A DNA stretch of 64,000 nucleotides from Suillus spraguei. Taxonomy: Eukaryota; Basidiomycota; Agaricomycetes; Boletales; Suillaceae. Below, one piece after another: positions 1 to 54,821 of this stretch; position 1 is the stretch's first letter, and each line of letters begins with the position of its first letter. Position numbers and translations under genes: made by a program. The stretch covers positions 62,001-126,000 of the forward strand of contig JABCPU010000170.1 of the NCBI GenBank assembly GCA_016800925.1. The letters run 5' to 3'. The notes beneath the pieces were generated by a model. That model ran no database searches. It was not told where the DNA came from and saw only the letters and a program-made list of their open reading frames with translations.

Positions 1-1878
1 GTGAGATGGCCAGGGGGACGGATTGATCAAGCAAAAAGGTTGCATTGACAGGAGAGTCGGGAAGTGGAAATGAAGGGTGCCGGTCCATGACTTTGCGACG
101 AAGGCCCTCATGGAGGCGTTGCAGGGAATCAATCTTACCATCCTGCTCCGCCACACGAGCCTCAAGAAGAGCAATTCGAGCGGCACCATCCCGAATCACA
201 ATTGCCATGGAATGGAGATCCGGCATGGGCACATCGAGTGCCGGACGAGGCACTGGGGCACTTGAAGACGGAATAGCTAAGTGAAAGATAAGGTCAGATG
301 GTCATAGACAATTGGGGTGACTCACAAGCTGGTGCAGGTGCAGGTGTCTTGGGGGCAGTGATTGTCTTGCTGCGCCCACGGGACTGTGCCTTGGGTGTGG
401 TAACAGCAGGGACAGCTGGAGTGCCGGAGGGGCCACGAGATTGACTGCGAGTTCGGGCTTTGGACTGCGAGGCAGCCGGCGCATTGGAGGGAGCTCTGGA
501 AGGTGTCCTGGAGCGAGCCTGCCGGGTGGTTGACTTCCCTCGAATACGTTTTGGCGGGGATCCCATGGATGCTGGGACACATTTGATCTTCTTGGTGGCG
601 CAGCGGACGCACGACAAACATGGGGCACGGGTCCTCCTGTCCAACCGAGTGGCGCAGGGCCACTTCTCCTGGGTGCAATAATGGCAGGGGTTGTTCTGTG
701 GGTTCCATTAGTTGATGGACTCATTGGAATTCATTAGAGTACTCACTGGGCCGGGAATGAGAATATCACCTGTATCCATGACTGCAGGTTCCTCAGCCGG
801 AGTGCTGGACATTGCCTGGGGGGTCTCCACAACCTCCGGACGACTGCCGGAGGTGGCCTGACAATGGGTAAGTACAGGCGGGAGGTCCGGACAAAGAATC
901 ATGACTCACCATCACCTTGGGTGGACTGCCGGCAATGAGCTGATGATACATAAGCATTTTTCCAAGTGCCGGACAACTAAATATTACTTACTGAAGCAGG
1001 ACCAAACAATTGCTTCTTTGGGGAACGTGGTGAACGAGGGGAATGAGGTGTCCCTACACCAATTGTGGAAGGCCGGGGAACGTTGAGGCCGGCACTCCAC
1101 TCGAAATAGGCTACAGAAAATTGAGAGAACGAAAACAATGAGCTGGACGACATACCTGAACAATTGTGTCTTCATCATCTTCCGACTCCACAAGCACATT
1201 CTGCTTGACATGGCGAGTTGCCTTGACCCGCTTGCGACCCTTCTTGGCCGACTTCGGAGGTGAGGAAGAGTGTCCGGACATCATGGGGGACTTCCTCTTC
1301 CTGCTCCCTTCCACCTCCGGCTCTGGGTCAGCAACAACCGCCTTACCTTTTCCTTTGTCCCGGAGCTCGGAGGTGGCGTGGGTGGAAGAACCAGCGACAT
1401 TGCCGGCGATGACGGGTGGGGAGGGAAGGTCCACAGTGATTGGGCCAATGGAAGGGTTAGGCATGACAGGGAGATCACCTGAATGGTCACCTAACGCCTC
1501 CCAGGCGCGAATCTTGCTGCGCCAGGAGTGTTTCAACACCCGGGGGTCATCATGACCGATGCTGTGCCAGTTGGGCCACACCCGGGGAGTCATGGACCTG
1601 ACTCTCATCAACTCCTTGGAGCAGGATGCAATGATGCCGGGCATGTAAGGCCCTTTCTCATGCTCCCGGACAATCTCAGCCTACCCAGATCTGAGAAAAA
1701 CCAAAAGTAAAATTAACACATGAATGGTACTTACCACAAGATTAGTGACTTGTGCTGTCAGAGCAAGGTGGGCTTGGCCAGTGCCGGCAGGCATGAGCCG
1801 AGCCCCGGCGATGATGCCCACAATCTGAGCAGTGGTTGCCTTGAGACTGGCCAAAGAGGTTTCAACTGAAGTAGACAT
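1..1878 (-). CDS. Zn2Cys6-like cysteine-cluster protein, multi-exon, 3' end outside window
   Basis: Seven exons join in frame on the minus strand: 1878-1735, 1680-1156, 1099-992, 939-910, 857-747, 695-326 and 276 to beyond base 1, with introns of 49-56 bases and GT-AG ends. The product is at least 521 residues and open at its C-terminus. Residues 310-345 hold C-X2-C-X6-C, then 14 residues, then C-X2-C-X6-C, the spacing of fungal Zn2Cys6 binuclear clusters, with one extra Cys at 332. A Lys/Arg/Ser-rich stretch follows, then a segment likely to form a coiled coil. Acidic and basic low-complexity runs precede the cluster. The start at 1878 is the first Met of a frame that splices onward. Function unknown; DNA binding is an inference from the Cys pattern. 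It lies divergent to the next gene, with 219 bases between them. Confidence 0.6.
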
Positions 1879-2097
1879 TTGGATTGACTTGAAAGATGTG
1901 ACAAGCTTGAGATAAGTTTGAAATCTGTGATCACTTGGATGAAGTTTCAAAAGAAACCAGACAATTGAAGGACAATCTTGATAAGCGTTGATTGTTTGTC
2001 TTTGTTTGGTCGTGGTTCAACTTTCGGCCGTTGCCAGCCATGTGTTGAACTTCGAAGTTATCAGTTATCAATCAGTTTGATCAGTTGATCAGACATC

Positions 2098-3114
2098 ATG
2101 AGATCTCAACCAGCAGTCAGATTTTATGAACCTCCGGTCACTGAATACAACTCAATGGATGTGGATGATTCAACCGAGTCCCGGATTTCACTAGGTATGT
2201 TGTACTTTCAGTACAGCTCTCAATTGACCGGAGATGGACCAGATGCACTGGATGATGTATACCTTGGGCCGGATGATGAGACTGAGTCCCGGATTTCATC
2301 AGGTATGTGTTGCTTTGAGTTTATCTTACAATTGACTGGACATTTATTAGATCCAAGTGAAGATGTATACCTTGGGCCGGATGATGAGATCGACTATGAT
2401 TCTGGGTCATCAGGTGTTCCGGATGTCTTGGATGCAGTTTCTGGTAGGTTTCTCACTTCACCTTTAGATAGTCCAACTGTGGATGTTCATTCAATCCATC
2501 CAGATCATTTATGCCCGGCTCAGCCTGAGGAACTGCCTTTGTTCAACGATCCGGACTTGTATCTAGGGCCTGATGATGATCTTATTGATTGTGATGAAGC
2601 ACCGGAATGTGCTGATGTTGAGACTGATGCTCCGGCTATCCCAGGAATAGCAATTCCAGGTGAGTTCACTCATACAATCTCATTTTTATTGTTGATGTGA
2701 TGTCCCAAGCACATGCAACACCTCCTAAATGTCAGTCCCCCATACCGGAACTCAGCAATGAAGACCTGCGTGCCATGCTTAGGGAGTTCATGCCCCTAGG
2801 GTCATATGATCAAACAGAATGTGAGTATTTAATTGTTCATCATGTATGATTCTGCTAATTTTCTTGAAGTTGAATCAATTCTGGATCGCCTGGACCATTA
2901 CCAACAGCGTCATGGCCATCTTCCGGAGCCTACCGTACATCAACTCCTCGAGGCCGACCGACCATTCCGAGTGGCTTGGGCTGACACATCCGACAAACTC
3001 AGAAGAGCTGATATGGACCTCCGGAGGTTGCAAAGGGCCAAACAGATGAGCTCTGAATTGCTGCTTGTATTAGATACCCTCATTGAAAAGTGTGATGATC
3101 AACCCCATATGTAA
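2098..3114 (+). CDS. Acidic hypothetical protein with repeated YLGPDD motif
   Basis: Five exons (2098-2194, 2243-2302, 2351-2659, 2710-2820, 2870-3114) join to an 822-base frame coding 273 residues. The first two introns are each 48 bases and resemble one another. The N-terminal half is strongly acidic and repeats a short motif ending YLGPDD three times, twice preceded by ESRIS, so the first exons look like internal duplications. The C-terminal third is mixed-charge and probably helical. I do not recognise the family. Its place between two minus-strand genes in the KDZ neighbourhood suggests transposon cargo. No catalytic motif or membrane segment is visible. The intron 3 acceptor could also lie at 2735 without changing the frame. 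Confidence 0.55.
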
Positions 3115-3500
3115 ATATTTGGATATTCATTCACATACTTACATCATGTACACCACTGAATTTTTAATGTATAACAATGACATTTCCAATTGATTTTAGA
3201 TGATGCACACACCCAATTGTCCCATTCCAACAGCCAATTATTGATTCCCGGGGTCCGGAGCTCGGTGATTGGGATTCATCCGGAACTCGGTGATCGGGTT
3301 TCGTGATATTTGGATTTTCATTCACATACTTAAATCATGTGAACCACTGAATTTTTCATGTATATCAATGACAGTTCCAATGTATTTTAGATGATGCACA
3401 AACCCTAATCTCTAATACCAACTACCAATGATTGATACTTGGGTGCCGGACCTCGGTGATCGGGAGTCGTCCGGAACTCGGTGATCAGGATACGTCCGGA
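3115..3500. repeat. Imperfect tandem duplication, about 190-base unit, in gene-free spacer
   Basis: Two diverged copies of one unit follow the stop of the acidic gene. Each begins near TGGATTTTCATTCACATACT, passes through ATTTTAGATGATGCACA and ends in several CCGGAACTCGGTGAT-like motifs. The first runs to about 3302 and the second from about 3303 to 3490. The same CCGGAACTCGG words return in the large arrays at 10.1-12.2 kb and 13.8-14.3 kb, which ties the spacer to the same element. The remainder to 3606 holds no recognisable gene. Confidence 0.6.
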
Positions 3501-3606
3501 ACTCGGTGCTTAGGATTCAACATTTTGGAAGTGGGACACTGTGTTTTAAGAAGTGTGACAAATGATGAAAATGTGGTAAACATGGGGGCAGTTTGGTATA
3601 TGTACA

Positions 3607-5469
3607 TTATTTCCTTCCCCTTGCCCTGGTTACTCGAAGTGTACTCTCTACCGGCTTTTGAGACTTACTCCGGGTGGTCCTTGCGGATGGTTCAATGACA
3701 GCTTTCTTGCCCTGTATACTCCTTGGTTCCGGCGATGCGTTCCTCTCTTCCACTTCCTCAGTGATCCCGGCCAGGAGGTCGCCCATCCGTGATGTCAAAA
3801 GTGCACCTGCCTTGGCCGGCCTGGCTGGGCGAGGCTCTGGCATTGAACATGGAACTTCTGTCTCCTTGGGTGCTGAAGATGGGTGTGCTATTTGTCTGGG
3901 TTTCTTCAGTGGGGATCGACCATCAGCCGAGTCATCATCAATGTCATCCTCCTTGTCATGAGTTTCACTGTCGGTATCACTCTCGGCTTCGGTTGATGGA
4001 TCCCGGGGCCTTCGGAGAGTTCCACTCTTCTGCATTCTCACTTGACGAGTCAGACGCGATGGCGACTTGCCGGATGCCACAGATGGTACCATGTCCCCAT
4101 CCTTGTTCTTCCATGCTTTGAACAGAAATGTTGAATCTTTTCCTGTTTCCTGCTGAGCATACCAGAAATTGAGCAAGGCCGTTGTGTCCCAGCTTTGCAA
4201 CTTTGAAGGCTCCTTCAGGTCAATATCGGCCGGAAGATACTTCCTTGCCACAAAGTCATCCTGACTTTGTACGAGGGCACTCCATGGCACGACAGCCTTG
4301 TCATTCCCGGAACATATTCCTGTGTCCACACATTCAGCAACATCTCAGATGTTGCCACGAAAGACTCACTGTAGTGCGATGTAAGAAATGCCCTGACTAT
4401 GGCTTTCTTCTCCTCAAGTTTTGTTTCCGTGATGTCTGGAAGCAACGGCATCCCATTTCCATCTGTGTCGAGTTCCAAAGCTGGTTTTCTGACTCTTTTG
4501 CGACCTCCCTTGACCTGTCGTCCTCCGTCCTGTGCCCCGGCACCTATCATTGTGATGATCAACGAATTCATTCTTGCATCCAAAGTTCAAACACTCACCG
4601 AACTGTTCCTGGGCGTACTCCTGCCATACTGGCTCAATGTCCTCCCAGTCCTTAGTCTTCATGAAGCTGTCCCCATCTCCTAATGCCTCATTATCATCAT
4701 GCCTGCACACATATATTGAGATCCAAGATCGGCGATGACGGACACAATTGACTTACATCCCGAACAGAACCTCTCCCTGTTCATTCTTCCAAGCTGACAA
4801 CACAAAAAACTCTCATCCCGCATTGCCTCCACATCTCTTTCGAAAAGTGCTCCATATATGCCGGTCCCGTCTTACGAGCAACTTCTGCTTGTATCTCCGG
4901 AGGAGGAAAGCTGTTTGACCATTCTTCCGCTGTTTCTTTTGCCTTCTCCAACTCGTCGTCGTCCAATTCAGCCATGACTCTCTTCACAGCCCCCTGATAA
5001 TGTTTGAACATACTGGGATCTCCCGGCTTTGCCCCGGACTCGTCCTCAATCCTCTTTAGCACCTCTTCGCGCTTCTGCTGGTAGACCACCATCCTAGGCG
5101 TCCATTTCCTCCCATACTTTATCATGTCCTTCCTTTCCTTCCTTTTCTTGTTGTTGAACAACCAAGTCTTATACATCTGAGAGTTGATGGAAGAATAAGA
5201 TGTTAAAATTGTAGTTTTTCAACACAACGAAGACGCATCACCTGCTTCCTCTTTTTCCATTGTCCTTGGTCGACTTTAGGAGCAAACAACCTGGCTGCCC
5301 TGGAAATTGCAGTGAAAACCCCTCGCTTCTCACCCCTTTTGGCCGCGGTCCACTCAGGAAGGTAGTTCTTCAACTCCGAAATTTCGTTTTCCGTGAGCTT
5401 CTGTGTCTGTGGTTGACGTGCCCTATTTCTGCCGGAAGTCAAGTGAGTGGAATGACCCGTCCTTGCCAT
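3607..5469 (-). pseudogene. KDZ-neighbour hypothetical gene, five exons, one-base frameshift
   Basis: Exons 5469-5242, 5176-4757, 4702-4599, 4543-4370 and 4319-3607 give a gene of about 545 residues, but the exon sum is 1,639 bases, one too many. The fault maps to exon 2 at 4804-4809, a run of six A on the plus strand; one base fewer restores a single frame through all five exons. The N-terminal part is basic and helical, the middle carries a Trp-rich segment (VPWSAL, LLNFWYAQQ), and the C-terminus is a long charged, low-complexity tail with acidic runs and an Arg/Ser/Thr-rich end. I recall similar unnamed proteins from agaricomycete genomes but cannot give a function. It is divergent from the KDZ transposase, 198 bases away, so the two may share a promoter region. 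The frameshift may be a true mutation or a base-calling error. Confidence 0.6.
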
Positions 5470-5667
5470 GGTGAATTTGAACGAATTGACAGAAGTTGAT
5501 CTTTGACAAAAGCCTAACAGTAGCTTAATTGAGCTATATTGGTCCCGAAGCCATAAATGGACATAAATTTGTAATGAGTCGGCAGGACTGTATGACACCA
5601 CAATGTAATAAAAATTCATTCCACCTGAGCAGATGCTTTGCTTGCAACATTAGCATTATAAAATAAG

Positions 5668-8600
5668 ATGAAGATAGGTAGATGCACCCCATTGCAAAAA
5701 TCCCACAGGGTAGAAGCAAGGGGCAGCAAGGGTAGAAAGATTTGGGTCAAGGTCCCACTTGCAAGCACAAGACGACGAGCCTACAGGTCCATGCCTCACT
5801 CTCCCCCAGAATCACCAACACTTCAGCCTGTTCAGGCACCACCTCCTTGGGATGACTTTCCTGACAATACTTACGAGCAAGACCAAGGCTCATTTGAGCC
5901 ATTGCAACTCCCAAAAACCATGGCAAGTTCATGTTAAATGTTGGAGTGTCATTCAAACTATAGCTCAATATAAACAATGCAGAGTCAAAATGACTACCTC
6001 AGGCAATGGCTGCCAAGGCAGGAATCATATCTGCATCACCTCCTGGATCGAGAAGCTCCACCAGAAGACAGGAGATGCATCATCTGCCACCAGGATGGGG
6101 TCTACAAATGTCAAGATTGTCTTGGCGAGCCTCTCTATTGCACGGGTTGTTGCAGGAGTCAACATCGTTGCAATCCTTTCCACTGGATCAGTCAATGGAA
6201 TGGTCAATTCTTCGAGCGGAGTTGTCTCGCTCATGTGGGACTCACCATACACCTCGGGCATGATGGCAAGCAATGTCCGGTGCTCACAGATAGGTGGGAT
6301 TTGTTTGAAGGAGATGAACCTGAAGACCAGCTTGAGCCCGAAGATCTTCCGTCTGTGTCGGGACCTGAGTTCCAGCCGAAGGAAAACACCATGGTCATCG
6401 TTGACAAGTCCGGAGTTCACCGCCTCGAGGTTCACTGCTGCGATTGTCCAAATGCCATGAGTCCGGACATTCAAATGTTTCGGCATGGATTTTTCCCTGC
6501 ATCGTTTAACAGGCCGAAGACCGTGTTTACCTTCGGAGTGCTGGATGATTTTCTATTGGACAACCTTGAATGCGGCACCTCCGCAATGAACTATTACAGT
6601 AAGCTCCGGCGAATGACCTCGAGCATGTTTCCACACCTTGTTCCGGTAATGCTATTTGTGCTTCATCTAAAGGACATGATGTTGACACAGGCCGTGGAAA
6701 GGATCGATACAGAGAGCTCATGAGAGTCGCTCGACAGTGGAGGCAGTTGAAGACCATGAAATGGCATGGCTATGGCCATCGTTCTGACATCCCGAACGCA
6801 GGAGATCTTGCATTATTTTGCCCGGCATGTCCTCAGCCTGGGATTAATGTATCTTTGTCAGGGGATGAATCACTTGATGAGTGAGTCATGTTCAATACCG
6901 AAGTGAACTCGGCGATGATAAGAACTCCAAGCTGGAAATACACCCGGTCATTTGTGATGGACGGAAATTTCAAAGCTGAACACCTGCATCCCATTAATCC
7001 CCTCGATGAAGTTTGGCTTTCAGATGGGCTTGGATTCATGGTCGGAAAGGACAGGTATAACATGCATCTTGCGGAGGCTGCTGACACGGTGGAAAAATCG
7101 AGCTGCAACAATCACCGGGCGGTCAATCAAGCAAATGCGGCGCGGCACAAGCTCGAGTCCACAGGAATCGGGGGAGTTGCCTGCGCCCGGCATGGGTGCT
7201 TTGTCCCTCACTCGATGGTTGATTTTCAGAAAGGGGAAAGGCAAGCCAAACATGCCATTCCACATTCACTAGTTGACCATGCATCATTTGCAGACAAATG
7301 AACATGGACTACGCCCTTTGTGAGGCTGCCCAGCACAACATGGAAGGCATTACCAGGGCTGTCACCTTCTATGACATTAATTGTCAATACAACAAGCACT
7401 TTCGTGTTCGGGTGGATCGAAGCCGATACCTTGACATGGTACCGGAACTGACCATCATTCCTGGAATCGGTTTGTGGCATGTGCATGGACATCAGGACAG
7501 TTGCTATGTCCGATATGCTTCGAATTTTATTGAAGGCATTGGCCGGATTGATGGAGAGATCATGGAGACCCTATGGGCGCGTCTCAACCTGATTTCCCCT
7601 GCCGCTCGGGGAATGTCATCCCCGCACCGAAAGGAATGTCTTGATTATCAGATGAACGATTCCAATTTCTGCAAGATGATCCGCATGAAAAGGACTCTTT
7701 GCCGGAAATACAAGCTGGCGAAGAATGGCATCGCCGAAAGTGGCAAGGCTTTCGACAGACTTGATGAAGCTGCACCCGGCAATTTAAAGACACAATGGTT
7801 AGCCAGCGAGATGGTCGCTCAGTCCAAGAGAATCAGGGATCCTGCGGCGATGGATTTATATGAAATCAATATCAAGAAGGGTAAGTTAACATTCTTTGTC
7901 TCCGTGGAGCTCCGCATTCATTTTTCACTTAGCACCAAGCAAAAAGGAGATCGAGCTTAGACTACTAGAAGCGGGTAATGCCCGTCATGCAGCACCCTCT
8001 CGCAGATCTGTGGCAACATGGATATCCATTGGGTTGGCAATTGAAGAGGCTCAAATTGCATTGCTCATCGAGGTCCGCAGAATTGGAAGACGATCGACGG
8101 AGACACAGAGATTAGATATCGCCCGGCAACGCGATCGTATTCAAGGCCAGATAGATGAATTCACTCGGTCTGCTCTTACGCATCTGGGAGAGGGATTTGA
8201 TGCAGATGACGATCCTGACGACTTGAACATAGATATTCTTGACGATATCGATGATGACCCGGCGGATTTCACCGAGACATCTGATGCATGGACAAACTCC
8301 CCTGAGCTCACCATAATTCCATTGCCATCAAACCTCGGGGTTGAACATTGCAGACGCTGTATGGCAGAGGATCTGATTCCGTTGGAGATGTCCCTTCGTG
8401 AAGGGCAGGCCAATGATGCCCTGCACAATCTCCGCATTCACTTGTGCAACAAGGCTATCCTGTTCCGAACAACAGTTAGGCAAGCCAAATCTCAAGCCCT
8501 AAAAACTCGAGCGTGGTCCCAGGTGACATCAGTGCAGCAGGCAGTATCCCTACATGCCAGTATATATACAAAAACCAGGAAGCAAATGATACAACTTGAG

Positions 8601-9100
8601 CCGGGGCCAGACCAGCTTCAGAAATACAAACCCCTGCTTCGCGAGCAGCTCAAAATCAGCACTGCCATCGGCGATCCAAACGCCCGAGGTCAGCAAAATG
8701 AGTCCCTCGCTTGGTTCTGGTCAGTGGAAGTCGACATGGAGGGTCCAGAAAATTCGTGGAATGAGGAATGTGAGTTCGGGCATGCTTGATATATTACGTG
8801 GTGAGCTGACAGGACCCATCCCAAGTTTACCGAGTTCATTGGCTTCGGGCAAAGGCACTACGGGATCGATGGATGGAAGAAATATCATTGGTGCAATCAG
8901 AGATGGATTGGACGTGCAACTTTTTCTTGTGGAAGGCAACCACATGGGGTGCCCGGATGCAGGAATCATTGTTGAAACAACTTCCGGGTCATGCATGCTA
9001 TGCCGGAAGGCAGTCTCAAATGTATTCCTTACTAGCTCAGGATGCACAGGCAGCATTTCAAGACCTGCAGCCCTCGTTGATCGATGGTGCACATGAATGA
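5668..9100 (+). CDS. KDZ-family DNA transposase with CxC2-like cysteine cluster
   Basis: Seven exons (5668-5922, 5983-6645, 6702-6880, 6932-7240, 7294-7880, 7933-8769, 8826-9100) join to exactly 3,105 bases, 1,034 residues. Residues 117-183 form the CxC2-like Cys/His cluster typical of KDZ transposases. The RNase H-fold core shows the expected acidic residues: VMDGNF (D376), TFYDINCQY (D496) and GRIDGEIMETLW (E557), with a conserved GLWHVHGHQDSC block before the last. The C-terminal WLRAKALRDRWMEE region is also typical. No stop or frameshift breaks the model. Introns 1 and 4 have GC rather than GT donors. A TATA-like TATAAAAT lies at 5657-5664, only four bases before the first ATG, so translation might start downstream (Met at 5788). 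The enzyme would cut and mobilise the surrounding element. Confidence 0.92.
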
Positions 9101-9271
9101 ATTTGTTTTGCTGATGAAACGCATATTTGACACCCAAACATTGAGTCCCGGGAATTGTCCGGGTCAGCCCATGTCGGAGTTTGAATTTCTAATCCATCCA
9201 TCAGTGACTCATATCATCAGCTCTTTACTATCTGTCAGTGTCATTCCCAGCGTCACACTCTTGCATTAGCC

Positions 9272-10074
9272 ATGCCTGAAACTCCTGCATCCACATCTGG
9301 CACTCCAAATACTGGACATCACTGGCAACCCATGAAGCTGAACCTTCAAGATATTTCTTGTACTTTGAATATGGCTGCATCGCGCATCCGCGCATGTATC
9401 TCTCAATATCAGATGGAGGCTGCTAACAACCCTCCCTCTTCTGCCCGGATCATGTACTTTAAAGCCGGGGTGCAATGGGAAATCAATGTAAGTGACTGAT
9501 GACCGGATGACCGGCTGACTTTTTTGGGCAATGCTGAGATTTCCAACAGACATTTGTTACGCCACTCCTGCAGTACTCAGCTGCAAGGAACATCGTTTCT
9601 GTTGTTCCAAGCCCCGTCGCTCATGTCCTGACATTGTATCCCATGCTCACCTGGAACACTGTTCCAGACCACATCTTTTCATCCCACCTGTGTCAGTTTG
9701 ATGATGTCGCAGCTCCGGGACATCCATCCCGGATTATTCCCAGCTATGATACTCCATGGTGGATGGGACACACCGAAATTCCTAATGAACCATGGCAATG
9801 GGGTCAGATCATGAGGTCCTGTGTCGTTCACTACCAGCATTGGATGGTAAATGGAGTTGAGGATGATGGCTTGGTTCTTCCTGAGGAGGTAAATGACTCA
9901 TCAGGCCCATCAGTGATGGGACTTAAGATGATTCGAGCACGCCTGGTAGCATTGATGGAGGAGCAAGATGAGGGTATCCATGAGAAGATGGCAGAGGTGA
10001 AGATGTACACTGACATGCTACAGAGATTGAAGAGAGGCAGGGGAGTGGAGTCCTCTTCACTGTGTTTAGATTAG
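9272..10074 (+). CDS. Hypothetical protein, 246 residues, KDZ-associated
   Basis: Two exons (9272-9487 and 9550-10074) separated by a 62-base intron give a 741-base frame. The N-terminus is Ser/Thr/Pro-rich, the middle carries a Trp-rich block (TPWWMGH, PWQWGQ), and the last 60 residues are charged and probably coiled coil. I do not recognise the family and see no catalytic motif. It starts 171 bases after the transposase stop on the same strand, so it may be cargo of the same element. A role as a partner of the transposase or of the dioxygenase downstream is speculation. Confidence 0.5.
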
Positions 10075-10099
10075 AATGGTCTTCATTTCATACATGATG

Positions 10100-12250
10100 T
10101 AAAATATTTTATTCCGTCCAAATGATTGTCTTGACTCCCGAATATTTTGTTCCGGATTTTGAGGACTGGATGTCAAGATCCGGGTGTAGAGTCCTAAATC
10201 CCAAATGCTGAGTGGCGAATGCCTGAGTGCAATGGTACTTAGAGTTTGGGACTTAATTCATCGGACTCGACTTCCAAATGGCAAGATTGCCTCACATATT
10301 TCTGAGTGGCGAGTCACGAATCTTAGGTACCGAACCCCGAACCCCACAATTGTGGACTACCGGTTTTCATGGTTTGGGGTTCAGCAATCAAGGGTCGAGA
10401 CGAAATAGATATCTGTGCGACAGTGCGGGGTTCGGCAGTCAACATATGTGGATCAATAACTTTCACATTATTCTGAGTGCCGAGTCCCGAGTTCCGGGTC
10501 CCGGGCCTCGGCAGTCGGCGTTCGGCACTTCACATGTGTGCATCCATATCATTCACAATGTTGTGAGTCCCGAGTCCCGAGTCCCGGCTGCCGGAGTTCG
10601 GGGTTCGGCACCCAACATGTGTGGATTATTCTGAGTGCCGAGTGCCGAGTTCCGGGTCCCGGGGCTCGGCAGTCGGCGTTCGGGACTTAACATGTGTGCA
10701 TCAATATCATTCACAATGTTGTGTGTCCCGAGTCCCGAGTTCCGGCTGCCGGGGTTCGGGGTTAGGCACTTTACATATGGGAATCACTATCTTTCACAAT
10801 GTTGTGAGTCCCGAGTTCCGGCTGCCGGAGTTCGGGGTTCAGCACTCAACATATGTGGATTATTCTGAGTGCCGAGTGCCGAGTTCCGGGTGCCGGGGCT
10901 CGGCAGTCGGCGTTCGGCACTTAACATGTGTGCATCAATATCATTCACAATGTTGTGAGTCCCGAGTTCCGGCTGCCGGAGTTCGGGGTTCGGCACTCAA
11001 CATGTGTGGATTATTCTGAGTGCCGAGTGCCGAGTTCCGGGTGCGGGTGCCGGACCTCGGCAGTCGGCGTTCGGGACTTAACATGTGTGCATCAATATCA
11101 TTCACAATGTTGTGTGTCCCGAGTTCCGGCTGCCGGAGTTCGGGGTTCGGCACTCAACATGTGTGGATTATTCTGAGTGCCGAGTGCCGAGTTCCGGGTG
11201 CCGGACCTCGGCAGTCGGCGTTCGGGACTTAACATGTGTGCATCAATATCATTCACAATGTTGTGTGTCCCGAGTTCCGGCTGCCGGAGTTCGGGGTTCG
11301 GCACTCAACATGTGTGGATTATTCTGAGTGCCGAGTGCCGAGTTCCGGGTGCCGGACCTCGGCAGTCGGCTTCGGGACTTAACATGTGTGCATCAATATC
11401 ATTCACAATGTTGTGTGTCCCGAGTCCCGAGTTCCGGCTGCCGGGGTTCGGGGTTAGGCACTTTACATATGGGAATCACTATCTTTCACAATGTTGTGAG
11501 TCCCGAGTTCCGGCTGCCGGAGTTCGGGGTTCGGCACTCAACATGTGTGGATTGTTGTGAGTGCCGAGTGCCGAGTTCCGGGTGCCGGGGCTCGGCAGTC
11601 GGCGTTCGGCACTTAACATGTGTGCATCAATATCATTCACAATGTTGTGTGTCCCGAGTCCCGAGTTCCTGCTGCCAGGGTTCCGGGTTCGCCACTTGAT
11701 ATGTGGGAATCAGTATCTTTCACAGGGTTCGGCATTCGGCGTTCGGCACTTTACATGTAGGAATCAATATCTTTCTCGTTCTTCTGAGTCCCAAGTCCCG
11801 ACCGCTGGCTGCCGGGCTCGGAGTTCGGCCCTCAACATGTGTGGATCAATGACTTGCACATTATTCTGAGTCCCGAGTCCCGAGTCCCGGCTGCCAGGAT
11901 TTGGAGTTCGTCATTTATGATATGTGAATTCACATCTTTCACATTGTTCTGAGTCCCGAGTCCCGAGCTCCGGCTGCCTGAGTTTGGGATTTGGCACTCA
12001 CTATATGTGAATTCATATTTTTCACATTGGTGTCAGTCCTGAGTCCCGAGTGCCGGCTGCCGGTGTTCGGTGTTCGGCAGTCACAATGTGTGGATCAAAG
12101 TCTGTTGCCTCACACTTTCCTGAGTCCCGAGCGTGAAGCCTGAATTCGGACTATCGATCATTGAGTCCCTAATTTCGAGGATCGAGTCCCGAGTCCCGAG
12201 ATACACAGAGTTAGGGACTCAATTCATGGAACTCGACTTCCGACTTGAGT
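10100..12250. repeat. GC-rich tandem array, about 150-157-base unit
   Basis: Units carry CCGAGTTCCGGCTGCCGGAG, then GGTTCGGCACTCAACATGTG, GATTATTCTGAGTGCCGAG and an AT-rich CATCAATATCATTCACAATG segment. Clear starts of TGTGGATTATTCTGAG fall near 10620, 10856, 11006, 11162 and 11316, with a variant near 11545. The edges (10100-10600 and 11700-12250) are degenerate. The array fills the gap between the 246-residue gene and the 3' end of the dioxygenase gene. Several frames stay open on both strands only because the unit is GC-rich and repeated; they are not genes. CpG content is high. Confidence 0.9.
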
Positions 12251-12337
12251 TCCAGAACTGTTGATGCTCTAATTGGTACATGGTATTCGTGTGTTGCTAC
12301 TAACATGGGTCACAACTCTGTCAACTTCTTTGATCTT

Positions 12338-13644
12338 TCACACCGTGCTTAGTATGTGGCCTTCGACCATAGCCCATCCACATGAGGGAACCCCGGCATA
12401 AATGTGCACAGAATCCCTCATATACCATGCCCAAGCAATCCGATCCCCTTCCCCTCCATCAACACCATGTCTCACAATTCTTCCCGAAAATGCAATCATA
12501 CAGCCGGAATCATACCTGAATTCCAGCTGAAGGCTTGGCATACTCATCCGAGCATTAGAATAGTTCCCCACGGTGGTGAGAATATCGAAGCATTCAGGAA
12601 TCGATAAATGGTCTCGATGATTGGGGGTTTCCCAATTGGAAATGATGGAGAGGCTGTTAAACACGGATGCCCAGTACTGCAGGGTCTCTGGCATCTGTGG
12701 CAGTTCCTTGCTCACTGCCTTATCTCCGAGGTGTGACAAGGCTCGTAACCCTGCAAAATACTGCTGAGGATGCATGACCCTGAGTGCCGCCGATGCGATG
12801 GCTGCCGGCCTTGCAATAGCTTTCAGGATATTCTCGGAGGAGGGTCCCTTCAATGATGCGGATACCTCCGGATCTGACAGATTCTATGGGATTGGTGAGT
12901 TTGACTCCAGAAATCACCATCTCATCACATCCTACCTCGTGGCCCTGTTGAAACCATGCCGGAGATAAATTGATGCATCCGGGAGTTGACCCAACATTTT
13001 CCGAGCCCTGTTTGAACCATTCTTGATTATATCGCCAATTGCCATCAGCCTTTACACTTTTTTCGAGGCTTGGACCCAGCAAATCGGTGGCCGCCCTGAT
13101 TTCCTTCTGTAGGTACCATTTGATATTCAATATCCATTGAGTAACAATCTACACATTACGCACCTGGGTGGTCTCGGTCAGGGCGTCCGGAAGGTACCAT
13201 GCGATGATGGTACCGGAAACATCGATAATTGTGGCAGGTTTGTCCACCACCTTTGTGCCCTCATGGCCAGGAGGACACCTCTCAAGCAACTTCTCCTCTT
13301 TCTCCTCATTATGCCCAGTGTTCTTTGGGGATATCAATTTGCTATATCTTGCAATATCAATCTGTATCTTAACTATCATGAAGGAATTTGAATGATCAAA
13401 CACATTTTCAACATCTGCAGGAAGACCCACTGGGATTTTTATATGCCTTTATGAGTACATCAGCCAAGCGATCGCACGCCATCACCAGATCAGTGTCCAG
13501 GTTCGGAGAAGGTATAACCGGTTCTCCTCCAGTCTTCTCTGCATTGAATTTTTGTTCGGTATATGCCCCTGCTTCATGAGTGATGGCCAGGGCCCAAGTG
13601 CGCCAGATTTTTATGTCACAAGTGGACATGGAAGAAGTGTTCAT
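12338..13644 (-). CDS. TET/JBP-type 2-oxoglutarate/Fe(II) dioxygenase
   Basis: Four exons (13644-13431, 13372-13164, 13106-12936, 12883-12338) join to exactly 1,140 bases, 379 residues, through introns of 52-58 bases. The C-terminal half is a double-stranded beta-helix dioxygenase of the fungal TET/JBP type. It has the iron ligands H287-x-D289 in TPNHRDH, the distal His H337 in IVRHGV, and R346 in GEGDRIAWAWYMRDSV for the 2-oxoglutarate carboxylate. The preceding MHPQQYFAG and LQYWASVFNSLS blocks also match this group as I remember it. The N-terminal 200 residues are less conserved. Known members oxidise 5-methylcytosine or thymine in DNA, and fungal members are known to be expanded and linked to KDZ transposons. 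Activity here is inferred from residues only. It is convergent with the upstream plus-strand genes. Confidence 0.85.
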
Positions 13645-14344
13645 GTTGCAAGTTGATATTGGGAAATCAGACGCTGAATGCTGGATGTCCAGACTTTGGT
13701 GTTAAAGGTGGTGGAGATAGCGAGGATCAGATAAGGGAACCTTGGATGATGTTGGCTTTCAAAGCTGTATTATCATCCATTGCTCAATGAAATACCAGAT
13801 GATTGGAAGTGTGCTGGATATCTGATATTCATTTGTCCAGACCCGGGTTCGGAACTCCGGAACTTGGTATGCTTTACTCAAATTTCGGGGGTCGGAACTG
13901 GGTGTCTCGTATTGACTGAATTATGTGTCGAGACCCGGGTCTCGGAACTCGGAACTTGGTATGCTTCATCTGATTTTCGGGGGTCAGAACTGGGTGTCTT
14001 GTAGGGCAACACAAGCCTCGCACCCCGCTTTCCACATTCTACAAGATAACCTAAGCGCCATAAAGGCCATTTCAAGACATCACTTGCTGCTCCTGGAACT
14101 TGGTATGCTTCACTCAAATTTCGGGGGTCGGAACTGGGTGTCTCTTATTGACTGAATTATGTGTCGAGACCCGGGTCTCGGAACTCGGAACTTGGTATGC
14201 TTCATCTGATTTTCGGGGGTCGGAGCTGGGTGTCTTGTAGGGCAACACAAGCCTCGCACCCCAGTTTCCACATTCTACAAGACAACCTAAGCGTCACAAA
14301 AGGCCATGTCAAGACAGCACCTGCTGCTCCGGGAACTCAGTAAC
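13645..14344. repeat. Direct duplication of about 236 bases upstream of the dioxygenase gene
   Basis: A unit containing GAACTTGGTATGCTTCA, TCGGGGGTCGGAACTGGGTG, TGTCGAGACCCGGGTCTCGG and TAGGGCAACACAAGCCTCGC is present twice, about 13857-14092 and 14093-14330, with few differences. It reuses the GGAACTCGG words of the other arrays. Bases 13645-13856 lie just 5' of the dioxygenase start and should hold its promoter; I see no clear TATA box. Confidence 0.75.
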
Positions 14345-14394
14345 TGTGATTTATTACCTCCTCTGATTCAGATGATATGCAACTCCCTCAGCTC

Positions 14395-14830
14395 CGTCAT
14401 GTCTACCATTATCATACACATGGGCCCACCCGTCTATATTTTATACCACCCTCGGCCCACCCGTCTAATATAATATACTGTACAACACCCTCGGCCCACC
14501 CGTCTAATAAATATTTATATAACACTCTCGGCTCACCCGTCTAATACCCGTCTAATTTAATATGTGTCTGGGCCCACCCGTGTATGTGATAACAAGTACC
14601 CTTCACATACCTGTCTATTTGATACACATCTACCTTGATACACCCATCTACATGATATCCAACTACCTCGGCCCATCCGTCTACCGGATATTCATGTACA
14701 TCGGCCCACTCATCTACTCTACATATTCCTTGCATGGGCCCACCCGCTGTCATCGGGAATAATATTCCTCCCGGCCCATCCGTCATCAACGAGGATATTT
14801 CTACCATGGGCCCATGGTCCGCTGGCCCGT
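14395..14830. repeat. Degenerate array of GGCCCACCCGTCTA words
   Basis: The motif GGCCCACCCGTCTA, with variants, recurs roughly every 40-70 bases between AT-rich segments, up to the point where the A-family LTR becomes recognisable. It could be the U3 part of an unusual 5' LTR or the flank into which the Gypsy element was joined. No gene is visible. Confidence 0.6.
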
Positions 14831-14896
14831 ATCATATGGGATATTATGCACGTCCGTTCACTCGTATAATACGGAGATAGTTCACTGTAATATGTG

Positions 14897-15035
14897 TCCG
14901 TCACGCAACCCCTTCCGGGTCTTCGGACGAATAACTCCTCCCTGAAATAAAGGGCATTACTCGAGAAAGGGGCACAGTGTACGAACTGAGGCCAAAGCCC
15001 TTCGGATCTCTCTACCCTTGAGTACAGTCTTAACA
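14897..15035 (+). repeat. 5' LTR of Gypsy A, only its 3' 139 bases recognisable
   Basis: From TCCGTCACGCAACCCCTTCC to the terminal CAGTCTTAACA this matches the last part of the 3' LTR at 21436-22204 almost base for base. Upstream of 14897 the sequence is unrelated to that LTR. Either most of the LTR was lost by recombination or the U3 region was replaced. A possible alternative LTR start is TGTGATTT at about 14346, unproven. Confidence 0.8.
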
Positions 15036-15085
15036 GTATATTCGAACTCAAACCTTTCCGAGTAACTTAGCAACCATCCCATATC

Positions 15086-16378
15086 ATGCCTCCCCGTAAA
15101 GCTCAGAACACACTCCGAGGAGCCGGACTTGGTCCGATCCAACGAGATCCCACACCCATCGTCCAAACATTTACCAGTTTCTCTCAACGCCGCGCAAGCA
15201 TGAGCGACATAGGTCAAAGTATCTCCGCCCGTCAAGTCAGACCGGATCCGATAACACCAACTCAGAACCCGGATAACCCAGACTCCAATTCGCGCCCGAC
15301 CATTCGCTTTGATGATGAGCTGCGCAGTAACCTACCAGATGATGAAGTTGATGATCCGGACAATGAGGACCTGGAGGATGAAGAAGATAAAATCCACCTA
15401 AACCCTCAGGACCGGGTCCTAGCCCAACTGTCCGTAGCCATTAACCACCTCGCTCGCAGTAGCCGTCGCACCCCCACCTCGTATGATAGCAAAGTCAAAG
15501 TCCGTGAGCCAGATACCTTCGATGGGTCCGAACCTCGCAAGCTCCGGGCATTCTTCGTCCAATGTGAGCTCAACTTCCAGAGCAAACCTAGCGCTTTCCG
15601 TTCCGGACGCGCTAAAGTCAATTTCGCCCAATCCTACCTTAAGGGTATGGCTCTCGAGTGGTTTGAACCGGACCTCCTTTCGGACGGATATAGCGACCGT
15701 CCAGACTGGATGGATGACTACTCCGAGTTCATGCTCGAGCTCCAAACCAATTTCGGACCACATGATCCCTCTGGAGACGCAGAGATGCAGTTAGAACAAC
15801 TCCACATGCGTGACGGACAACGCATCAACAAGTACGTTGTAGAATTCCAGCGACTTGCCTCCCAAGTACGCAAATGGGGAGACGGAGCCCTACGACGCCA
15901 ATTCTACAATGGACTTCCGGCTCGAATCAAAGATGAGATTAGTCGCATGGGTAAGCCCACTACCCTTTCGGAGTTCAAGACTCTCGCCCAGACCATCGAC
16001 GCCCGTTACTGGGAACGGAGGGGCGAAGTCACCCGAGAGAGTAGAACCACCTCTTCCAATCCTCCCAGGCAGTCAACATCCGACCGGACGAACTCCAACT
16101 CATCCGGATCCGATACGCCCAGATTCAATAAACCCACATACTCCACAACATCCTCTACCCCGAAAGTTTCGGATCTCCCTAGTGTTGTTGGTACAGACGG
16201 AAAGCTAACCACCCAGGAGCGTCAGAGACGTTTTGACAAAAAGCTCTGTATGTTCTGCGGCAGACCTGGTCACACTGCCCGGGAATGCACCAAATCCACT
16301 TCGCGCGCTGCCAAAGGCCGCGCCACTGTGCTCACTCCGGAAACGGAACCGGAAGCCTCGGATGAGGCAAAAAATTAG
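15086..16378 (+). CDS. gag: Gag polyprotein, Gypsy A
   Basis: Single frame of 430 residues starting 50 bases after the 5' LTR. The acidic N-terminal third is followed by a Ty3/Gypsy-type capsid region (KLRAFFVQCELNF, WFEPDLL, LQTNFGPHDP, RQFYNGLP). A CCHC zinc knuckle lies at residues 388-401 (CMFCGRPGHTAREC), close to the C-terminus as in other Gypsy Gag proteins. It should assemble the particle and bind the element RNA. The frame ends at TAG 16376-16378, directly after a slippery heptamer, and the protease frame follows in the -1 frame. Confidence 0.92.
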   Translation: MPPRKAQNTLRGAGLGPIQRDPTPIVQTFTSFSQRRASMSDIGQSISARQVRPDPITPTQNPDNPDSNSRPTIRFDDELRSNLPDDEVDDPDNEDLEDEEDKIHLNPQDRVLAQLSVAINHLARSSRRTPTSYDSKVKVREPDTFDGSEPRKLRAFFVQCELNFQSKPSAFRSGRAKVNFAQSYLKGMALEWFEPDLLSDGYSDRPDWMDDYSEFMLELQTNFGPHDPSGDAEMQLEQLHMRDGQRINKYVVEFQRLASQVRKWGDGALRRQFYNGLPARIKDEISRMGKPTTLSEFKTLAQTIDARYWERRGEVTRESRTTSSNPPRQSTSDRTNSNSSGSDTPRFNKPTYSTTSSTPKVSDLPSVVGTDGKLTTQERQRRFDKKLCMFCGRPGHTARECTKSTSRAAKGRATVLTPETEPEASDEAKN

Positions 16379-16417
16379 TCCGCGACCCTCCTGACTCCGT
16401 ACGGGATGAGGGTCGCG
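16369..16417 (+). promoter_or_regulatory. Programmed -1 ribosomal frameshift signal at gag-protease junction
   Basis: The heptamer A AAA AAT lies at 16369-16375 in the correct gag phase (GCA AAA AAT TAG). After a five-base spacer a perfect 10-base-pair stem follows: CGCGACCCTC (16381-16390) pairs with GAGGGTCGCG (16408-16417) around a 17-base loop. Slipping back one base continues with TTA GTC CGC and stays open for 20 codons into the protease frame. Slippery site, spacer and stem all fit the known -1 frameshift arrangement. Confidence 0.85.
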
Positions 16418-16434
16418 TTGGCCCAACCCGTGCA

Positions 16435-17010
16435 ATGGAACTACGACTCAACGCTGTAACTCTTCCTGATCCGAACTCTCTGTGTCCATATGTCTCTCTT
16501 CCATCTTTCTCCAATATATCTGACTTTCCGGCCCTCATAGACTGTGGTTCCTCCCACTGCTTCATAGACACTGATTTCGTCCGAGAACATAAAATTCCTA
16601 CCTATCAGATTCCTCCGCTTCCACTCCGTTTATTTGATGGTACATGCAATAACAATATTGTCGAGGCCATAAACTTATCCGTCCGATTCTCCTCCGGTGT
16701 AATCACTTCCGACACGTTCTACGTCACCCCTTTGGATTCCTCATGTTATATCGTTCTCGGATATAGCTGGCTCACCCGACACAATCCGTTGATTGACTGG
16801 GTATTGGGCAGCATCGAGTTCCGAACTACTGAACAGGGAGAGCCATTAACCCCATCCACATCACCGCTGCCTCCGGACACACCGTCCATGGCAGGAAAAT
16901 CCAATCCGACACCTCTGTTACCTTCGGGTATTCCACCAAGGAAGATTCCTCCCCTCCAATATCTCCGTCGCCTCAGAGCACCCCATCCGTGGCAGAGGCT
17001 CCGCCTCTGA
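16435..17010 (+). CDS. Aspartic protease region, Gypsy A, reached by -1 frameshift
   Basis: The frame is open from the slip site (16375) to 17010. It shows a retropepsin-like motif ALIDCGSSHCFID, where the usual D-S/T-G appears as D-C-G, and the second-half motif VLGYSWLTRHNPLIDW typical of chromoviral proteases. A Pro/Ser-rich tail follows. The ATG at 16435 is probably not used if frameshifting supplies the product as a Gag-protease fusion. The pol frame is again -1 relative to this one and is already open from about 16829, so roughly 180 bases overlap. I saw no classical slippery heptamer in that overlap, so how pol is reached is unclear. Confidence 0.82.
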   Translation: MELRLNAVTLPDPNSLCPYVSLPSFSNISDFPALIDCGSSHCFIDTDFVREHKIPTYQIPPLPLRLFDGTCNNNIVEAINLSVRFSSGVITSDTFYVTPLDSSCYIVLGYSWLTRHNPLIDWVLGSIEFRTTEQGEPLTPSTSPLPPDTPSMAGKSNPTPLLPSGIPPRKIPPLQYLRRLRAPHPWQRLRL

Positions 17011-20000
17011 CCAAATCCGAACCCTCCGCTGGTACTCCAGTCCCTAACATATCGTTGATAAACGCAGTGGCCTTTTGCCGTGCCTGCAAGTTAGAAGGAT
17101 CTACTCAGTTCAGCATCTACCTCCGTCCCTCCGAAGTAAACCTTCGATCCGCATCCGTATCATCCGATCCTCCAGACCTCTCCAGAATCCCTTCCAATTA
17201 CCACGAATTCACGGATGTCTTCGACAAAGGCAAAGCCGGACAACTTCCCCCACATCGACCCTACGATCTCAAGATTGAGTTGGAAGAAGGGGCTAGTCCA
17301 CCCCTCGGAACCATATACTCTCTTTCTCCGGTAGAGCTTGAGGCCCTCCGGAAGTTCCTTGATGAAAACATCTCGTCCGGACTCCTCCGTTCCTCATCTT
17401 CTCCCCACGGAGCCCCCGTCCTATTTGTCAAAAAGAAGGATGGATCCCTCCGCCTTTGTGTGGATTTCCGCGGCCTTAACCACATCACCAAGAAGGACCG
17501 ATATCCGTTACCCCTCATTGCCGACCTACTAGACTCCCCGAGCCACGCTAAAGTTTATACCAAAATTGATCTCCGATCTGCATATCACCTCGTCCGGATA
17601 ACAGAAGGAGACGAGTGGAAGACTTCCTTCCGTACGCGCTATGGCTCCTATGAATGGTTGGTGATGCCGGAAGGCCTCACGAATGCTCCGGCAGCTTTCC
17701 AGCGCTTTGTCAATAGCGTATTTTCCGATATGCTGGACGTATGTGTTGTTGTATATCTGGATGACATCCTTATCTATTCCCAAGACCTTGCAAGTCATAA
17801 GGAACATGTCCGAGAAGTTTTGCGACGTCTCCGTAAACACCGACTATATGCCAAACCCGAGAAATGCGAATTTCACTCATCCTCCGTCGAATATCTTGGT
17901 TACCTCCTATCTCCGGATGGCTTGACAATGTCGTCCGAAAAGATCCAGTCTATCATAGACTGGCCAGAACCTCGGAAAGTCAAGGACATCCAATCTTTCC
18001 TCGGATTCGCTAACTTCTATCGTCGTTTCATCTTCAACTACTCGGATATCGTGGTTCCCCTTACTCGACTCACTCGCAAGGGCATCACTTGGGACTTCTC
18101 CGAGGAATGCCGGAAATCATTTAACGCACTCAAGAAAGCATTCACGTCCGCTCCGGTGCTAACACATTGGATTCCGAATGTTCCTATAGTTGTGGAAACT
18201 GATGCCTCGGATTATGCTATCGCTGGAATACTATCCATTGTGTGCCCAGACTCGGAACTTCGTCCGGTGGCATTTTACTCCCGGACGCTGTCCGGTGCAG
18301 AACTCAACTATGATGTCCATGATAAGGAACTACTAGCCATCTATGCTGCGTTCCGAACCTGGCGCCATTACCTAGAAGGCTCGTCCGAGCCTATAGATGT
18401 TGTCACGGACCACAAGAACCTTGAGTATTTCTCTACCACCAAACTGCTATCCCGTCGTCAGGCCCGCTGGTCCGAGTTCCTCCATCAGTTCAACCTCGTT
18501 ATCCGTTACCGTCCTGGAAGACTCGGAGTCAAGCCAGATTCCCTCACTAGACGATGGGACGTCTACCCTAAAGAGGGGGATAAGGCCTACGCTCAGATTA
18601 ACCCTCACAACCTCCGTCCAATATTCGCTTCGGAACAATTAGCTTCGTCCCTACGAGCTTCCATTCTAGCAACTCCGGTCCTTAGAGCAGCTGTTCTTAT
18701 GGACACCGAACACCTCCGGAAAGACATTCTGATAGCACTCCCTAATGACCCCGTTGCACAAACACATTTTCCGGTTCCTTCGGATCCGAGATGGACAATA
18801 GACGATGGTGGACTCCTTTGTTGTGACAACCGCATCTACGTTCCAGATACCAATGATCTACGACTTCGCATCCTCCGGAATTGCCATGACCACCCCCTAT
18901 CCGGACATTTCGGACAGAATCGTACTCTCGAGCTCATCCGACGCAACTATACCTGGCCCGGAGTACGAGCCTTTGTCAAAGAGTATGTCAGATCCTGCAC
19001 ATCCTGCGCCCGAGCCAAAGTTCCGAGACATAAGCCCTACGGTCTACTCAAGCAACTTCCCATCCCAGAAAAACCATGGAATTCCATCTCTATGGATTTC
19101 ATTGAACAACTTCCGGACTCATCCGGCTTTACAGCCATCCTCGTCATCATAGATCGTCTATCCAAGCAAGCCATATTCGTCCCGACCCACGATACCATTA
19201 CTTCCCCTGATCTCGCCCGCCTATTTCTCCTCCATGTCTTCTCTAAGCATGGAGTCCCGTCCCATGTAACCTCGGATCGAGGAACAGAGTTCGTATCCCA
19301 CTTCTTCCGTTCCCTAGGAAAGGCATTGGACATGGTCCTACACTTCACATCCGGATATCATCCCGAAGGAGACGGACAAACCGAACGTGCCAACCAAACG
19401 CTGGAACAGTACCTCCGGATCTACTGCAACTATCAGCAGGACAACTGGTCCGAGCTACTGCCCCTCGCAGAGTTTGCATACAATAACGCTCCGAGTGCCA
19501 CTACCGGAGTTTCACCTTTCTTCGCCAATAAAGGTTATCATCCGAACATTTCCATCCATCCGGAACGCGACCTATCCTCCATCCGTGCCCAGGAATATGC
19601 CCTAGATCTTAACAAACTTCACCAGTTCCTCCGAGATGAGATGTCCGAAGCTCAGAAACGCTATCAAGGACCCGCGGACGCTAAAAGACAGCCTGCTCCA
19701 GACTTCCGGATTGGAGAACAAGTCTTCGTCAAAGCCAAGTACTTCCGTTCCACTCGTCCGTCGAAGAAACTTTCGGAAAAGAATTTGGGACCATTCGAAA
19801 TTATATCCCGCCCGGGTACTCATTCTTTCGCCATCCGACTTCCGGATTCTATGCGTTCCGTACATCCTGTTTTCCATGTCTCGCAGTTAGAGCCAGCAGT
19901 TCCGAACACCATTCCCAATCGCATCCAACCTCCTCCGCCACCAGTCGAAGTCGACGGAGAACCAGAGTACGAGATATCCGAAATCCTGGACTCTAAACTG

Positions 20001-20120
20001 GACCGTCGTAGGCACCACTGCCAACTTCTATACCTCGTCCGTTGGTCCGGATACGAAGGAACGGACGAAGAAACTTCCTGGTTACTGGCCACAGAACTCG
20101 GAAATGCATCGGATCTGTAG
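16829..20120 (+). CDS. pol: Pol: reverse transcriptase, RNase H, integrase, chromodomain (Gypsy A)
   Basis: Open from about 16829. Counting from codon 16989, the RT runs from about residue 120 to 290 with VYLDDILIYS (YLDD at 256-259). RNase H follows with ETDASDYAIAGIL and TDHKNLEYF. Integrase has the HHCC zinc module from about residue 633 and the catalytic core with MDFIEQL, TSDRGTEF and GQTERANQ. A chromodomain starts near residue 994 (YEISEILDSKLDRR, LVRWSGYEG, ETSWL). The RT motif usually MPFGLTNAP reads MPEGLTNAP, one odd residue next to the active site. No stop interrupts the 1,043 codons. The chromodomain would direct insertion toward particular chromatin, as known for chromoviruses. 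Confidence 0.93.
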
Positions 20121-53788: not shown

Positions 53789-54105
53789 GACTGAGGGCTA
53801 TGTACGAAGTGTAACGGAAGTCTATTAGTCAATGCACAGCAGATCAGTAAGCACGAATCGGAACTGAAACACAGGTAACGGATCAGTGACACAGGAAGGA
53901 ATTATACACAGCTGGAGTACCGGAAACAGGATGAGTGATGAAAGGAGATAGACGCAGTTATACACAAGGGAGATAGAGTGCGAGAAGCGAGCACATTCGG
54001 ATGAGCGATCTGGACAGGATCTGTGGACCAGACGGAAATAGAATCGATCAGATCTGATCGGATATGGTTGGATCTGGGATCAGAAGTATGGTATATGACA
54101 CCGTG

Positions 54106-54731: not shown

Positions 54732-54821
54732 AGTAAATTTTCAAACAAACATGTACATTTAACCACCATTTCAACAAAACTAAAAGTACACTATACAACA
54801 CTTTACATAAAACTACAACAA

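Follow-up and report, generated by a model that had tools for sequence, protein, structure and literature searches.

Expansions of TET/JBP genes associated with KDZ elements were reportedly described in mushrooms by Iyer et al. in PNAS in 2014. At that time, the location of TET genes inside complete transposons was unsettled, according to Kojima 2025 (PMC12730594). The main text of the latter paper describes Kyakuja elements that bear a TET gene (TET+) and occur in five orders of Agaricomycotina, including Boletales, the order of Suillus, and proposes that they escape from methylation silencing. It cites Coprinopsis cinerea as having 46 TET genes of the AG type and gives target-site duplications (TSDs) of 7 bp for the Laccaria Kyakuja families and of 8 bp for Zisupton and Dileera. 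Oxidised methylcytosine has been reported in transposons of Laccaria and Coprinopsis, according to PMC8889193. Here we analysed a 64,000-nucleotide window of Suillus spraguei DNA (contig C337:62001-126000, GenBank JABCPU010000170.1; genome 86.2 Mb, 1,256 contigs), which carries a transposon of this kind.

Like the TET+ Kyakuja elements in the main text of PMC12730594, the transposon combines a KDZ transposase with an AG-type TET/JBP gene and has a 7-bp TSD. Its length of 18.5 kb, its long CpG-rich arrays and its extra genes differ from that main text, and may not be real differences. The Laccaria families have no terminal inverted repeats according to the same source, whereas the element here has imperfect inverted ends. 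An earlier note on this DNA, made from the letters alone, had linked fungal TET/JBP genes to KDZ elements, a link that is in print in PMC12730594, and had called the TET gene cargo of a KDZ neighbourhood. The latter wording was too loose: TET is a standard component of an already known type of transposon and not an unusual passenger. Our reading, with a probability of about 0.78, is that the locus is a structurally complete, recently active Suillus TET+ Kyakuja-type transposon, whose TET protein would lift silencing incompletely, while methylation would cause both genes to decay. The words Suillus and CpG are absent from the main text of PMC12730594, and a search of the open-licence literature for Suillus together with Kyakuja found no paper. 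The element type is already in print; new here is that the idea of self-demethylation is examined on one genome.

Extent, genes and copy number of the transposon

The transposon is 18,495 bp long and spans -3598 to 14896 in window coordinates, with its first 3,599 bases outside the window to the left (C337:58402-62000). For the right end, copies could be followed collinearly along the window, starting in its left part, up to 14896, where the flanks diverge. For the left end, the contig was extended and then compared to other copies, as well as to the right end in inverted orientation. The heptamer TCCGTCA is perfect on both sides of the element. The search for further copies, proposed in the earlier note as a way to define the ends, found both of them, and the span flagged there as the element neighbourhood (5668..13644) covers under half of the element. 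An element ending inside the window was rejected, the left end being 3.6 kb outside. The main features in the window are:

1..14896, no strand: in-window part of the TET+ KDZ DNA transposon (provisionally Kyakuja-type), ends from copy alignments with unrelated flanks and a perfect 7-bp TSD
5791..9100, plus strand: KDZ transposase gene, predicted splice model of 8 exons and 971 amino acids, with CxC2 and KDZ domains and D/D/E motifs
12338..13644, minus strand: TET/JBP dioxygenase gene, predicted splice model of 379 amino acids in 4 exons (13644-13431, 13372-13164, 13106-12936, 12883-12338), with PF12851 and a match to CcTET
14436..14896, no strand: right subterminal region with GACGGGTGGGCC-type repeats, matching the left end imperfectly in inverted orientation (~79% over 150 bp), with ...CACTGTAATATGTG as its last bases
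14897..14903, no strand: right TSD copy TCCGTCA (7 bp), with the left copy at C337:58395-58401

The TET model has 379 open codons and intact H287, D289, H337 and R346. The earlier note had described just such a four-exon gene, and the splice model, a PF12851 match (E=3.1e-14 at 12338-12883, minus strand) and the match to the solved CcTET of Coprinopsis cinerea (7VPN, 8JKK) bear it out. The N-terminal half and the catalytic half each contribute separate stretches to the homology with CcTET, which extends over most of the protein (E about 1.5e-39). The iron-ligand set HxD...H and the 2-oxoglutarate arginine of the 2OGFeDO domain were all present. So were the features of AG-type TET/JBP proteins (HxD, the downstream H and R, and the Asp337 equivalent), in a gene located between transposon ends. 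In the CcTET numbering given in the main text of PMC12730594, H326/D328 correspond to H287/D289 here and Asp337 to D298; Gly331 corresponds to Ser292, and Kyakuja TETs are stated there to have Gly or Ser. By domain and ligands, the gene is a predicted TET/JBP dioxygenase.

A profile search, another check proposed earlier, recovered the KDZ domains as well as the TET/JBP domain. PF18758 and PF18803 (CxC2) matched in separate frames in the Pfam search of the window, and PF18758 was near-complete in the 971-amino-acid transposase model (profile 2-217 of 217, E=1.2e-35). The catalytic motifs FVMDGN, TFYDINCQ and DGEIMETLW hold D328, D433 and E494 in the numbering of this model. The D/D/E motifs and the open spliced frame of the earlier note stand; its version with 1,034 codons and 7 exons was not reproduced, and must differ from ours in intron choice.

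Allowing up to 2 mismatches, we found 293 right end motifs (24 bases) and 263 left end motifs (29 bases) genome-wide, and 0 sites for the reversed control. The TET codon patterns gave 182 sites for R346 and 174 for Asp298. For a 1.5-kb segment of the transposase, 40 of 207 candidates were scored, and all 40 were 98-100% identical. The element is very young, high-copy and recently active.

The KDZ and TET genes lie on the same mobile unit, as the earlier note had supposed, with mapped ends and a TSD in the window copy and linkage in other copies too. Twenty 10-kb stretches were requested, including the window's own copy (L009) and four shortened by contig ends (L024-L027). Both gene halves were covered to >90% in one alignment in 14 of the 19 other copies, the remaining five being split (L021) or cut by contig ends. 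End pairing was limited to the positions listed, 100 of the 293 right ends and 54 of the 263 left ends, and gave 24 two-ended elements. A TET match was found in 7 of the 8 elements of at least 15 kb, and in 0 of the 16 of <12 kb. The eighth long element (C1:635656-652448) holds both TET codon patterns, indicating that it has TET too. TET matches were located 1.65-2.77 kb inside 33 of the 100 listed right ends on the expected strand, and inside none on the other strand. The termini GAGCCCCTTCAGTG... and ...CACTGTAATATGTG were present in all 12 two-ended elements read, with a perfect 7-bp TSD in four (C337, C236, C427 and C368, the window's element included).

The element on C368 (L076) is a short derivative of 4.75 kb, with a perfect duplication and both ends in full. 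It gave no DNA match (E 1e-5) to the KDZ, TET, gene B or downstream genes or to window 2-2700, and its remainder resembles the tandem arrays listed below. Compared with the window, the transposases of two other copies, L072 (C633) and L073 (C414), have five CGA-to-TGA stops in common, which suggests that an already dead copy was duplicated or was transposed in trans.

CpG decay, catalytic codons and selection

Mutation spectra were obtained from 16 copies per half of the element (for the KDZ half, the window was included). In the KDZ half, C-to-T or G-to-A changes affected 64 of 344 CpG bases versus 10 of 1,850 other C/G, and in the TET half 41 of 112 versus 10 of 655. Transversions were not elevated at CpG in either half. 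Consensus-free segregating sites gave a similar picture, with 68/376 versus 21/1,846 in the KDZ half (15.9-fold) and 42/117 versus 17/661 in the TET half (14.0-fold). Copies L001-L008 had been excluded from the young-family TET spectrum; with seven of them added (L003 failed the length filter), CpG transitions reached 91/110 versus 43/655. CpG losses were present in 14 of the 16 KDZ copies and 13 of the 16 TET copies, and older copies dominated them (L014 with 39 of 85 in the KDZ half, L014 and L021 with 36 of 63 in the TET half). The 14-16-fold per-site excess of CpG transitions among near-identical copies suggests that the copies have been methylated despite TET and that their CpGs have been lost at a high rate; the transitions would have their origin in methylation.

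In the host genome there are six matches to DNA methyltransferases, in the form of exon pieces spread over four contigs. A single DNMT1-RFD match was also found, and its contig carries two of the six. DNMT1-RFD and DNMT5 are given as the methylation toolkit of Basidiomycota in PMC13297926. In the main text of PMC12730594 hypermutation is stated, citing others, as not detected in Agaricomycotina. The CpG excess need not contradict this statement, because ordinary deamination of 5-methylcytosine (5mC) would give it.

Immediately to the right of the transposon there is a Gypsy-type long terminal repeat retroelement (15071-20120), with a CpG observed/expected ratio (o/e) of 1.03. For a 1.2-kb piece of it, 40 of 224 candidates were scored, with 96-100% identity, and one of these is a second, inverted copy on the same contig (C337:128842-130041). 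As a control for the decay, we used 1.2-kb Gypsy pieces from the window and 16 other genome places. With non-CpG transitions as the yardstick, the Gypsy CpG excess was 7.1-fold (n=5), 3.4-fold (n=8) and 3.6-fold (all 17). That decay is stronger in the TET element than in Gypsy was rejected, as it holds by non-CpG transitions and not by transversion counts. Gypsy decay is not lower relative to transversions, and we therefore limit the claim: decay of the same kind in Gypsy suggests no visible protection of the element's own DNA. The earlier note's proposal, an element editing its own methylation state, left no sign in the sequence, CpG loss being not visibly less than in Gypsy.

The enzyme may also act on the marks without removing them. 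TET would then turn 5mC into stable 5-hydroxymethyl-, 5-formyl- and 5-carboxylcytosine, which would be the signal itself, with a change of mark in place of demethylation. The oxidised methylcytosines of Laccaria and Coprinopsis transposons, retrotransposons included (PMC8889193 and PMC12730594), speak for this, and the persistent CpG decay in the copies fits marks left in place. The transitions could, however, arise from 5mC or from its oxidised forms, which the data here do not distinguish. We regard such a change of mark as possible, on the doubtful side.

CpG-type changes have reached the catalytic codons of TET. The codon patterns admitted only C/T and A/G at the R346 and Asp298 positions, other codons being uncounted. 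Among 100 listed of the 182 R346 sites, the codon was CGG in 71, CAG in 24 and TGG in five, a CpG-type alteration in 29 of 100. The Asp298 junction was readable in 79 among 100 listed of the 174 sites, with 38 CG, 25 TG (silent) and 16 CA (Asn); the difference between the silent and Asn counts is not significant (25 vs 16, P=0.21), giving no clear sign of selection there. Both residues were kept in 37 of the 68 loci readable at both, and 31 had lost at least one of them by a CpG-type change. The Gln change at R346 was found on all three Asp298 backgrounds and therefore probably arose more than once. In-frame stops in 150 scored TET matches, not all of this family, were 24 TGA, one TAA and one TAG, in 22 matches.

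Residues were also counted in the best 120 of 185 TET homologues, which are predicted proteins from repeats, many of them incomplete. The highest-ranking homologues carry the annotation Suillus spraguei. H287 was kept in 93/98, D289 in 85/88 and H337 in 51/54, D298 in 65/88 (20 Asn) and R346 in 35/59 (14 Gln, 4 Trp).

The selection test accounted for three mutation classes (CpG transition, other transition, transversion). Among young copies, the transposase had 40 nonsynonymous changes (N) versus 59.6 expected, with an omega of 0.37; values this low arose in 0 of 20,000 simulations. For the transposase, purifying selection in young copies is clear; for TET it is not. Copy L074 was dropped from the KDZ test as misaligned in our judgement (479 differences); with it, the pooled diverged comparison had an omega of 0.96 (P=0.33), and the four other diverged copies taken singly had 0.80, 0.62, 0.63 and 0.70.

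Other genes, arrays and neighbouring repeats

In addition to KDZ and TET, the transposon ends enclose gene B (5469-3607), the gene at 9272-10074 and the frames at 2-2016. The remaining features are:

2..2016, minus strand: frames of a further gene with the cysteine cluster CHYCTQEKWPC...CVRCATKKIKC, continuing leftward beyond the window, unspliced, the frames tried being without a Pfam match that passed the cut-off
2089..2700, plus strand: further open reading frames, unspliced
3607..5469, minus strand: gene B, divergent from the transposase, 6-exon open model of 518 amino acids, its frames being without a Pfam match that passed the cut-off
9272..10074, plus strand: small gene downstream of the transposase, 2-exon open model of 246 amino acids, no Pfam match at E 0.01
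10421..12061, no strand: tandem arrays between the two convergent genes, from a repeat scan
13855..14337, no strand: 236-bp repeat in two copies between the TET gene and the right end, from a repeat scan

The earlier note had counted four extra genes. Those at 9272-10074 (plus strand) and 5469-3607 (minus strand) splice into open models, and 2-2016 (minus strand) and 2089-2700 (plus strand) were seen as frames only. The frames at 2..2016 were collinear in copies L029 and L030, and also in L031 with a single gap at ~1574-2081.

Gene B homologues among the matches listed (best 120 of 130) were all from Suillus species. Many of them come from Suillus subluteus, which is not represented in the best 120 of 185 TET homologues. 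The S. subluteus genes could belong to TET-free relatives of the element, a possible natural comparison. Relative to the 16 other copies compared, which all have these bases, the window copy is missing ~40 bp immediately upstream of where gene B starts (5477); this gap is a copy-specific deletion between the divergent genes.

The long CpG-rich arrays of the earlier note were confirmed, with a CpG o/e of 1.00 over 10400-12080 versus 0.57-0.71 in three coding parts. Array length is variable, 1002-1695 bp between anchors in 16 copies versus 1700 in the window. The arrays had 24 CpG transitions in 252 CpG bases, a per-site rate below that of the coding halves, in an unreliable alignment with 39 transversions and many skipped sites. 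The arrays were rejected as a mark of self-demethylation, because of this alignment and because array turnover would restore CpGs too.

Elsewhere in the window, positions 54000-59000 are strongly depleted in CpG (o/e 0.27; TG/CA o/e 1.49), like an old methylated repeat. Repeats of 109 bp in tandem at 28225-28459 and 34515-34745 form an apparently inverted pair ~6 kb apart, as judged by eye. A perfect 8-bp microsatellite, CGGAGGAG, occupies 52735-52962 with 28.5 copies.

Role of the TET gene

In the reading that we prefer, of a TET+ transposon under incomplete protection, the KDZ transposase would recognise the element ends, move the element and leave the 7-bp target duplication. Short gene-less derivatives with identical ends would be mobilised in trans. 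The TET protein would oxidise 5mC, most likely as a trans-acting enzyme that is not strictly targeted, and this would relieve methylation-based silencing enough for transposition bursts. Protection would be incomplete, with the host continuing to methylate copies, and C-to-T decay at CpG would damage both genes, including the CpG-containing codon of the catalytic arginine of TET. The anti-silencing proteins of plant VANDAL/MuDR elements, to our knowledge unrelated to TET, are a possible parallel. If the mechanism is right, TET would work like them, as a transposon-borne factor against the silencing of its own element; the plant proteins are described in the main text of PMC12730594 as sequence-specific, whereas strict targeting is unlikely for TET.

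Several points weigh against this reading. The flanks did not match, without a TSD, in 8 of the 12 two-ended elements read. C594 and C540 have a common left flank, and the left flank of C341 coincides with a segment of the KDZ gene in the window (near 6741-6764), so that likely causes are nested insertion, recombination or joins made in assembly. Two TET matches lay beyond a listed right end, at a distance of up to 6 kb. According to the main text of PMC12730594, Laccaria Kyakuja have 5'-CA..TG-3' termini, which the right end here (...GTG) fits and the left end (GAG...) does not. As CA..TG is stated for only two Laccaria families, we take it as a family-level trait and not a defining one. Because of the left end, the filing as Kyakuja-type is provisional; the name of the Pfam model covers Kyakuja, Zisupton and Dileera alike. 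In young copies, TET had an N of 28 where 32.9 were expected (omega 0.67, P=0.10, not significant), and in the comparison with seven diverged copies 81 versus 85.8 (omega 0.86, P=0.21), giving no support for a continued need for TET. Finally, all five catalytic or substrate residues checked were kept in only 17 of the 56 homologues covering 287-346.

These TET values, next to the transposase omega of 0.37 among young copies, and the loss of R346 or D298 at 31 of the 68 doubly readable loci, would also suit a TET gene that is a neutral or near-neutral passenger, captured once, carried by the transposase and now unneeded for the family's transposition. On the other hand, the difference in omega between TET and KDZ is within error (z ~1.7, a rough estimate from the selection-test counts), H287 and D289 are kept in nearly all homologues, and the likeness to CcTET, an enzyme of another order, implies long-term retention. 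We consider a passenger TET rather unlikely. A chance juxtaposition of KDZ and TET as two independent repeats, in a repeat-rich genome with numerous TET copies, was rejected as extremely improbable, being contradicted by the fixed convergent arrangement and by the mapped ends and TSD that enclose both.

Within the preferred reading of incomplete protection, a more speculative step is that TET is a shared good which host methylation would selectively erode. Each copy's enzyme would help all copies in trans, while methylated copies would lose R346 (R346Q/W) or Asp298, and dead copies and gene-less derivatives would free-ride until the burst ends. We put this forward tentatively, as a rather unlikely extension.

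In the main text of PMC12730594, the argument that a transposon-borne TET helps its own element is built on the presence of the gene and on intact reading frames, and is acknowledged there to lack experimental validation. The record in this genome suggests that any protection by TET is incomplete. Tens of near-identical copies, with intact and with CpG-damaged TET, occur here together with gene-less derivatives and Gypsy elements, so that maps of methylation or oxidised cytosine from one mushroom could decide the question of self-help. If copies do free-ride on a shared enzyme, the genome would keep a record of demethylation racing against methylation-driven decay, a race open to measurement, with each step dated by copy ages and CpG losses.

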